A DNA stretch of 44,720 nucleotides from NCBI GenBank assembly GCA_012719655.1, contig JAAXZZ010000141.1, positions 1-44,720 of the forward strand. The letters are read 5' to 3'. A program made the position numbers and the translations under genes. The DNA is from Gammaproteobacteria bacterium. GTDB lineage: Bacteria; Pseudomonadota; Gammaproteobacteria; Pseudomonadales; Pseudomonadaceae. Numbering within the stretch: position 1 is the first letter of the stretch; every line of letters starts with the position of its first letter. The notes below the pieces were generated by a model. It searched no databases. It worked only from the letters and a program-made list of their open reading frames with translations, and was not told where the DNA came from. Below, piece after piece: positions 10,360 to 30,604 of this stretch.

Positions 10360-10492
10360 ATGCAACATCACTGCTCATTGAGCAGCGTGTGGGTGACCTG
10401 GCAAGCGTAGTCATGGATGACGCAGCGCCCGAATCGAGACAGGATGTCTCGTGAGGGGTAAACGTCATTCACACACTGCGACATGCACATAG
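10360..10492 (+). repeat. GGA-loop three-way-junction element, copy A (stem 10382-10479)
   Basis: A 98-nt element flanked by family-conserved sequence. The outer arms at 10382-10397 and 10464-10479 pair over 16 positions on the plus strand, with one mismatch and two G-T pairs. Inside, hairpin 1 is GTCATGGATGAC and hairpin 2 is CGAGACAGGATGTCTCG. The two GGA triplets lie 27 nt apart. The 5' flank resembles TGATCAACGAG of other copies and the 3' flank has the shared CATGCAC motif. It sits in sense orientation 101 bp after ygiQ. The 5' flank alone can also fold as CTGCTC-ATT-GAGCAG. The structure is seen directly; the function is unknown. Confidence 0.75.
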
Positions 10493-10494
10493 AC

Positions 10495-10516
10495 ATCTAA
10501 ACACTTTGCTTTAGAT
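10495..10516. repeat. Inverted repeat between the facing tails of copies A and E
   Basis: ATCTAAA and TTTAGAT enclose an 8-base loop where the 3' tails of plus-strand copy A and minus-strand copy E meet. It could end transcription from either side, but there is no T-run, so I only call it an inverted repeat. Confidence 0.4.
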
Positions 10517-10527
10517 CTGCACGTAAC

Positions 10528-10626
10528 GTACTTCGGGGTAAGTGTTAATCCGTCGATGAACCCATCCAGGGTTCAACTCCGGCGTTCGCCATCCCTGGCT
10601 CACTCACCACACCCACCCCGAAGTAC
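10528..10626 (-). repeat. GGA-loop three-way-junction element, copy E (minus strand)
   Basis: Read on the minus strand, this 99-nt copy has arms of 18 bp: 12 perfect pairs (GTACTTCGGGGT with ACCCCGAAGTAC), then six more including two G-T pairs that pair only in minus-strand RNA. Inside are hairpin 1, GCCAGGGATGGC, and hairpin 2, TGAACCCTGGATGGGTTCA. The core differs considerably from copies A-D but keeps both GGA loops. Its 5' flank holds TGGTCAACGAG. Upstream of it on the same strand lies a degenerate copy of the end of the flavin oxidoreductase gene, so it was probably once that gene's 3'-UTR element. Confidence 0.72.
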
Positions 10627-10667
10627 TCGTTGACCATTTACAGGGCTTGCACTATTGCAGCCTGAAT
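10627..10667 (-). repeat. Degenerate duplicate of the flavin oxidoreductase gene's 3' end
   Basis: On the minus strand this stretch (ATTCAGGCTGCAATAGTGCA, continuing into CAAGCCCTG) aligns with the last codons and stop of the oxidoreductase gene at 11200 (ATTCTGGCTGAGTTGCAATAG) and with the bases just after it, allowing a three-base gap. It is too short to be a pseudogene but shows that the gene end and part of its 3' UTR were duplicated before copies B and C took their present place. Confidence 0.5.
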
Positions 10668-10746
10668 AACTTGCATAGATGTTTAATGATCTAATCATTT
10701 TAAAAAGCCGTACTCCATATTGCCAAACAACATCACTGACCAACGA

Positions 10747-10844
10747 GTATCTTGTTGCTGTCGCGACCAGCGCAGCCAGGGATGGCGCAGCCTCGAATCG
10801 GGTCAGGATGACCCGCTGAGAGAAAAGCGATAGCAACAAGGTAC
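10747..10844 (+). repeat. GGA-loop three-way-junction element, copy B
   Basis: The arms GTATCTTGTTGCTGTCGC and GCGATAGCAACAAGGTAC pair over 18 positions on the plus strand with two G-T pairs, which would be A-C mismatches in minus-strand RNA. Hairpin 1 is GCCAGGGATGGC, extended by two more pairs around a bulged A. Hairpin 2 is CGGGTCAGGATGACCCG. It is followed by GGCATGCGCAT, the conserved 3' tail. Compared with copies A and D, the hairpin 2 stem has changed on both sides (GAGACA/TGTCTC to GGGTCA/TGACCC) with the loop kept, which is covariation. Confidence 0.75.
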
Positions 10845-10967
10845 GGCATGCGCATATCGCTCTGGATACTCTACAATATTAAAGACACTCAGCCTATGCA
10901 TTGGACTGAGACTCTATCGCCGGCATGGCCAGCTCATACAGGGTTCAAACACATCACTGATCAATGA

Positions 10968-11065
10968 GTATCTTGTTGCTGTCGCGACCAGCGGAGCCAA
11001 GGATGGCGCAGCCTCGAATCGGGTCAGGATGACCCGTTGAGAGAAAAGCGACAGCAACAAGGTAC
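10968..11065 (+). repeat. GGA-loop three-way-junction element, copy C
   Basis: Tandem duplicate of copy B, 221 bp downstream. The right arm GCGACAGCAACAAGGTAC turns one of copy B's G-T pairs into G-C, so 17 of 18 positions are Watson-Crick. The hairpin 1 loop differs at the free position only (GCCAAGGATGGC). Hairpin 2 is unchanged. The changes since duplication preserve pairing. Confidence 0.75.
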
Positions 11066-11199
11066 GGCATGCGCATATCGCTCTGGATACTCTGCAATGT
11101 TAAAGACACTCAGCCTATGCATCGGATTAAAACGCAGTCGCTGGCATGGCCAGCTCATACAGGGTTCGAAGCTCTGGTTGATCATGTGCAGGGTTTGTA

Positions 11200-30457: not shown

Positions 30458-30595
30458 ATCAACACTACTAATGATCAACAAGCACTGCGCTGTATCTGTG
30501 ACAAGCGCAGCCATGGATAGCGCAGCGCCCGAATCGAGACAGGATGTCTCGTTGAGGGAATAACAGTTACAGCGCAGTGCGCCATGCGTGAAGCC
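30458..30595 (+). repeat. GGA-loop three-way-junction element, copy D (stem 30482-30580)
   Basis: Far from the other copies, this 99-nt element has arms GCACTGCGCTGTA and TACAGCGCAGTGC (13 perfect pairs), then a T-T mismatch and four further pairs. The arms do not resemble those of A, B or E. The core from CGCAGCGCCCGAATCGAGAC through AGGATGTCTCG is identical to copy A. Hairpin 1 is GCCATGGATAGC with one mismatch. The 5' flank is TGATCAACAAG and the 3' tail is GCCATGCGTGA. It lies in sense orientation after the LysR gene, between convergent genes. Confidence 0.75.
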
Positions 30596-30604
30596 AAAAA
30601 ACAA

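Follow-up and report, generated by a model that had tools for sequence, protein, structure and literature searches.

Intergenic repeats of bacteria are usually viewed as selfish DNA or as terminators. The window that we analysed, a stretch of 44,720 nucleotides (44.7 kb) from a 2.7-Mb draft genome, raises the question of whether a family of roughly 98-nt elements lying between its genes is to be understood in this way or as a structured RNA, and what its conserved hairpin loops might serve. An earlier note on this DNA had described five copies, and all five are present (Table 1). A covariance model (R1) of the kind suggested there was built from an alignment of 56 distinct copies and searched over genomes; it scores the window copies at 110-130 bits and returns no others in the window, although its E-values are rough. 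A DNA search of the whole draft genome gave 41 matches.

Table 1. Elements of the family in the window. Scores are for covariance model R1, cores run from the first to the last position of the outer stem, and D and E are the two subtypes described in the text.
Feature	Position	Strand	Remarks
Copy A, D subtype, model span	10370..10497	+	110.3 bits; 98-nt structured core 10382-10479
Copy A, outer stem 5' arm	10382..10399	+	pairs with 10462-10479; alignment columns 15-33 with 99-116
Copy A, hairpin 1	10405..10426	+	hexaloop ATGGAT at 10413-10418; G·A-type internal loop
Copy A, hairpin 2	10428..10457	+	pentaloop AGGAT at 10441-10445; tandem G·A internal loop
Copy A, outer stem 3' arm	10462..10479	+	from the 56-copy alignment
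Copy E, E subtype	10510..10638	-	118.1 bits; core 10528-10626
Composite D-E unit (A on +, E on -)	10370..10638	.	outer ends both of the TGATCAACGAG type
Copy B, D subtype	10735..10862	+	121.0 bits; core 10747-10844
Copy C, D subtype	10956..11083	+	126.8 bits; core 10968-11065
Fifth copy, D subtype	30470..30598	+	129.9 bits; core 30482-30580; Pfam-typed neighbours lysR and dus

Fold, covariation and strand

The core of the element is predicted to form a three-way junction, in which an 18-bp outer stem, hairpin 1 and hairpin 2 are joined by short linkers, and the predicted folding of each window copy lies 3.2-6.4 SD below that of dinucleotide shuffles. The sequence of the outer stem is free; hairpin 1 ends in a hexaloop of the form A-N-G-G-A-U and hairpin 2 in a GGA pentaloop. 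Across the 56 copies, 96.3% of the cells in the 33 pairs are paired and double-sided changes occur in 28 of these pairs. The covariation score is 0.625, compared with 0.236 +/- 0.009 (sd) for shuffles and 0.07-0.12 for slid registers, and a separate alignment of 53 copies, all of the D subtype, leads to the same prediction, compensated changes being seen in 24 of its 31 pairs. These values bear out the description, in the earlier note, of outer arms that are unrelated between copies yet complementary within each, and of a hairpin 2 stem that changes on both sides.

When the pairs of the 56 copies are read in the direction of the element, G·T oppositions outnumber A·C oppositions by 105 to 17, from which it follows that the fold is selected on a single strand only. 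The same asymmetry appears in a second genus, where the arms of the copies in genome G352 are, past the inner 10 bp, 39% identical to one another, yet contain 43 G·T and a single A·C. The idea that the G-T pairs fit RNA read in the element's own direction thus holds in two genera, and covariation and G·T excess together lend strong support to the compensatory evolution of a strand-specific structure. The internal loops contain G·A oppositions that are near invariant (54, 52, 55 and 49 of the 56 copies), which we take from the alignment to be probable sheared pairs; in hairpin 2, the pair adjoining the tandem G·A differs by subtype, being A-U for D and G-C for E. Strand asymmetry, internal loops of this G·A type and loop conservation are the features that suggest a structured RNA; a role as single-stranded DNA is less likely.

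We considered whether the arms could be kept complementary by mutation itself, through gene conversion between copies or through template switching where the DNA is palindromic, in the absence of any RNA function. Such a process would account for the outer stems found in other genera, which span 20-36 bp and are unique to their locus; those of G352 and G364 differ from copy to copy and are nearly perfect over about 22-36 bp. Arrays of the element also recombine. Template switching, however, predicts no strand bias, and the two G·T to A·C ratios given above already weaken this explanation, which in addition leaves the conservation of the loops and internal loops unaccounted for. We therefore regard it as very unlikely.

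Paired subtypes and their distribution

Two subtypes can be distinguished among the copies, D (CCCGAATC...TTGAGGG) and E (CCGGAGTTGAACCC...GGGTTCATCGACGG). Neighbours on opposite strands pair D with E in 86 of 86 cases, placed tail to tail with a gap that is usually about 26 bp and mostly 13-33 bp, and neighbours on the same strand are only DD (23) or EE (2). In other words, the natural unit is a D-E composite of roughly 285 bp, because opposite-strand neighbours always comprise one of each. In the window, E is the tail-to-tail partner of A, with 12 bp between the model spans, and C is a tandem duplicate of B, a D half with its flanks, repeated at a period of 221 bp. Copy E does share the common design, as had been supposed, but it belongs to a distinct subtype and is more than a sequence variant; the conserved flanks outside a variable stem, noted earlier as unusual, are also real, and are explained as the outer ends, TGATCAACGAG, common to the composite unit.

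Two smaller features touch on this architecture. Upstream of B, at about 10690-10740, lies a further conserved block, approximately TTTAAAAGAG.CGT.CT....TGCAAACAACA, which precedes many D copies and may belong to the repeat or act as a promoter. At L278:13750 in G004, a remnant consists of the TGATCAACGCG end with a few bases of the stem; its hairpin body is missing, possibly through deletion at the palindrome.

Each of the 12 genomes searched from the genus Denitrificimonas (ex Pseudomonas caeni) contains copies. Among named records, an exact match to the core is found in Denitrificimonas caeni (formerly Pseudomonas caeni), and metagenome-assembled genomes contain it as well. The complete 3.2-Mb congeneric genome G004 carries at least 150 copies, every scored candidate having matched. 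The family design proposed in the earlier note stands, with its scale corrected from local to genome-wide. Only the best 9-150 candidates per genome were scored, and copy numbers outside G004, as well as absences in other genera, are weak.

The hunch that similar repeats exist in other gammaproteobacteria proved right. Of 119 genera sampled from the order, 14 have model matches, a count that includes the genus itself, and outside the genus the matches are weaker; G352, with 36 matches, illustrates many copies in one genus, and a single 72-bit match lies outside the order. The cores in G352 and G364 are conserved, each with two GGA hairpins. For the weaker matches, at 27-47 bits, descent in common with the Denitrificimonas family is likely as far as the shared hairpin-1 block is concerned. 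Plasmid and phage records gave one match, in Aeromonas caviae, with the same design: two GGA hairpins together with an outer stem. At least 23 similar elements are contained in G045 (L227-L236), a genome of 6 Mb from the same family; the ten that were read have one and the same outer stem of 17 bp, along with two GGA hairpins and flanks that are long and conserved, whereas the stems elsewhere are variable.

This distribution invites a different reading, in which the element is a mobile repeat of the REP/REPIN or MITE kind, without a role for the host, whose folded single DNA strand is the substrate recognised by a transposase, of the Y1 (RAYT) type or another. Its inverted paired halves with common outer ends, its tandem arrays and its variable presence at the same gene pair between species all suit such a life. 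What speaks against it is the distribution of the enzyme: Y1_Tnp genes are patchy, found in 6 of the 12 genomes and in none of the complete, copy-rich G004, and the Y1 loci have no element nearby, for which reasons a RAYT-driven REP was rejected. Moreover, at the one gene pair compared, neither a clean empty site nor a target duplication is evident. We consider a purely mobile element unlikely.

Other candidate partners were also set aside. An Rpn-like nuclease lies near elements at 5 of 13 loci and was not found in G001, G002, G007 and G010, which carry elements and some of which are incomplete assemblies. A transposon with the same outer ends was likewise discarded, the core-less sites in 800 kb of G004 and the window being mostly chance matches within genes or truncated elements. 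In G008, a gene of about 322 aa lies between near-identical same-strand elements (L065:1511-2880), and it occupies a similar place in G003 (L063:425-3675); we take this gene to be Rpn-like (Pfam gave no match). At L081 (G000:C129:2097-2345), a Y1 transposase gene (about 209 aa) stands alone between ordinary genes with no adjacent element.

Gene 3' ends and the GGA loops

Copies A, E, B and C sit between a convergent radical-SAM gene and luciferase-like gene, and the fifth copy between convergent lysR and dus (all by Pfam). An 800-kb sample of G004 contains 39 copies spread over a dozen regions, and 11 of these regions have called genes on both sides. Elements are found in 7 of the 61 convergent regions, in 4 of the 255 codirectional ones and in none of the 71 divergent ones, a convergent bias with a Fisher odds ratio of 10.4 (p = 3.5e-4) where genes were called simply as long ORFs. 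The radical-SAM/luciferase-like pair has elements in three genomes and a short region in others, several of these with a terminator-like hairpin. At the lysR/dus pair the element is kept in three genomes, in one of which hairpin 2 has been replaced on both sides.

These positions would also be expected of a 3'-end element that acts by structure alone, as a bidirectional block to RNases or transcription at convergent genes, a role that has been proposed for REP/BIME, the GGA sequences being incidental or the concern of another factor. Along with the enrichment between convergent genes, the absence from divergent regions and the terminator-like hairpins at the same gene pair in related genomes, the great stability of the stems fits this explanation. 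It would leave unexplained why A, G, G and A of the loop hardly change when N and the stems do, and no U-run lies 3' of the stem: the 3' flank has the consensus CGGCATGCGCATA, with no T run, unlike an intrinsic terminator, in which a T run comes directly after a G+C-rich stem. We think it rather unlikely that structure is all that matters.

The loops themselves provide the more specific clue. In hairpin 1 of the 56 copies the A is found in 56, the N is free (T27 G20 A9), and the following G, G and A are found in 55, 56 and 56, all while the stem that closes the loop covaries. High-affinity targets of RsmE/CsrA are A(N)GGAX hexaloops and pentaloops such as AGGGA/AAGGA (PMC4005645). By sequence, then, the element, whose hexaloop and GGA pentaloop are both near invariant, has what is expected of a CsrA/RsmA-binding RNA, A(N)GGA in hairpin loops with at least two per RNA. 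Both strands of the 800 kb of G004 contain 52 hexaloop sites, 33 of them within elements, and 37 pentaloop sites with stems of at least 4 bp, 31 of them within elements; all of these element sites are in sense. The elements occupy about 0.6% of this sequence yet hold 63–84% of its canonical sites. Every one of the 12 genomes of the genus has a csrA gene. Pull-downs with RsmA, RsmE and RsmI in P. putida recovered intergenic RNAs beside ISPpu8 copies and a 'long palindromic region' (PMC7937890); these RNAs may be relatives of the element.

From the strand-specific structure, the D-E pairing, the convergent bias, the loop pattern, the share of sites within elements, the presence of csrA and the P. 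putida pull-downs, we propose that the family is a REPIN-like intergenic composite repeat whose RNA is a putative bivalent RsmA/CsrA-binding module, which would serve as a distributed sponge and possibly as a capped 3' end; we favour this proposal tentatively, at somewhat less than an even chance. The RNA would arise most likely through read-through beyond gene 3' ends, and each half would fold in its own direction so that its two loops could grip one RsmA/CsrA dimer. Hundreds of sites together would then constitute a distributed decoy, and in cis the element would act as a protein-capped 3' end. Transcription, RsmA binding, the effects as decoy and at 3' ends, and spreading in the manner of a REPIN or MITE are the parts that we infer.

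Several observations count against the RsmA/CsrA proposal. The element pentaloops (AGGAU and similar) differ from the published AGGGA/AAGGA, and the conserved GGA loops could serve another protein instead. All 12 genomes of the genus also have a divergent sRNA that resembles RsmY and scores below the Rfam cut-off (for example L302, G000:C66:34373-34484), so that a decoy already exists. The lack of a U-run in the 3' flank, CGGCATGCGCATA, weighs on the same side, as do those arrays in which the copy first reached by a transcript is antisense.

The wider form of the proposal is that these are previously undescribed dispersed repeats of several gammaproteobacterial genera, acting as bivalent RsmA/CsrA modules at 3' ends and as a sponge tied to read-through. 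We hold this form with low confidence, as a possibility worth stating: if it is true, the activity of a global regulator would be coupled to overall read-through, and stem sequence would be free to drift. The findings have implications of their own. A repeat family whose stems are under strong selection at the level of a single strand, and whose near-invariant loops fit the motif of a global regulator, recurs in its design across genera. Should the loops bind RsmA/CsrA, such repeats would join a central regulatory circuit, which differences in copy number between species would retune. A class of repeats also gains a directly testable function and a covariance model for its detection.

Comparison with known repeats and regulatory RNAs

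The earlier note could match the element to no known family, and the searches agree. Against Rfam 15 the window contains nothing at or above the gathering cut-off, and the relaxed threshold gave only a chance CRISPR-DR (E = 2.3). Literature searches on CsrA/RsmA-bound repeats gave no account of the family, the P. putida pull-down apart, and one on P. fluorescens repeats gave the R0, R1, R2, R6 and R178 families only. Integron attC sites, considered for their folded single strand, seem an improbable match: the copies are scattered, and on inspection their ends do not resemble the core sites of attC.

The REP, BIME and REPIN repeats of enterobacteria and pseudomonads resemble the element in being many-copy, intergenic, palindromic, arranged as inverted pairs and enriched at gene 3' ends, and the constant pairing of D with E corresponds to the two inverted halves of a REPIN. 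A REP is defined as a palindrome of 20-40 nt, one end of which bears a GTAG or CGTC tag (PMC3733652). In contrast, a half of the element is a three-way junction of about 98-129 nt that has TGATCAACGAG as its conserved 5' flank and neither tag nor linked RAYT, and it has free, compensated stems and conserved GGA loops. Its common outer ends, TGATCAACGAG, are MITE-like; no autonomous partner was found among the candidates described above, and no target duplication is evident at the gene pair compared.

Five families of P. fluorescens (R0, R1, R2, R6 and R178) are intergenic repeats of 80-180 bp, with inverted repeats around a core, and some have been interpreted as MITE-like (PMC2718517). Set apart by description, they have identical inverted repeats and a core of variable size, whereas the element has variable arms and a conserved core; neither RNA covariation nor an Rsm motif is described for them (PMC2718517).

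The decoy RNAs RsmX, RsmY, RsmZ, CsrB and CsrC carry several GGA hairpin loops per RNA and the A(N)GGA motif, as the element does. They are encoded by one or a few dedicated sRNA genes, whereas the element is dispersed, with two loops per half, and has no evident promoter or terminator of its own. Likened by description, the ISPpu8-adjacent and 'long palindromic' RNAs of P. putida are, like the element, intergenic and palindromic, and they are bound by Rsm proteins in vivo (PMC7937890).
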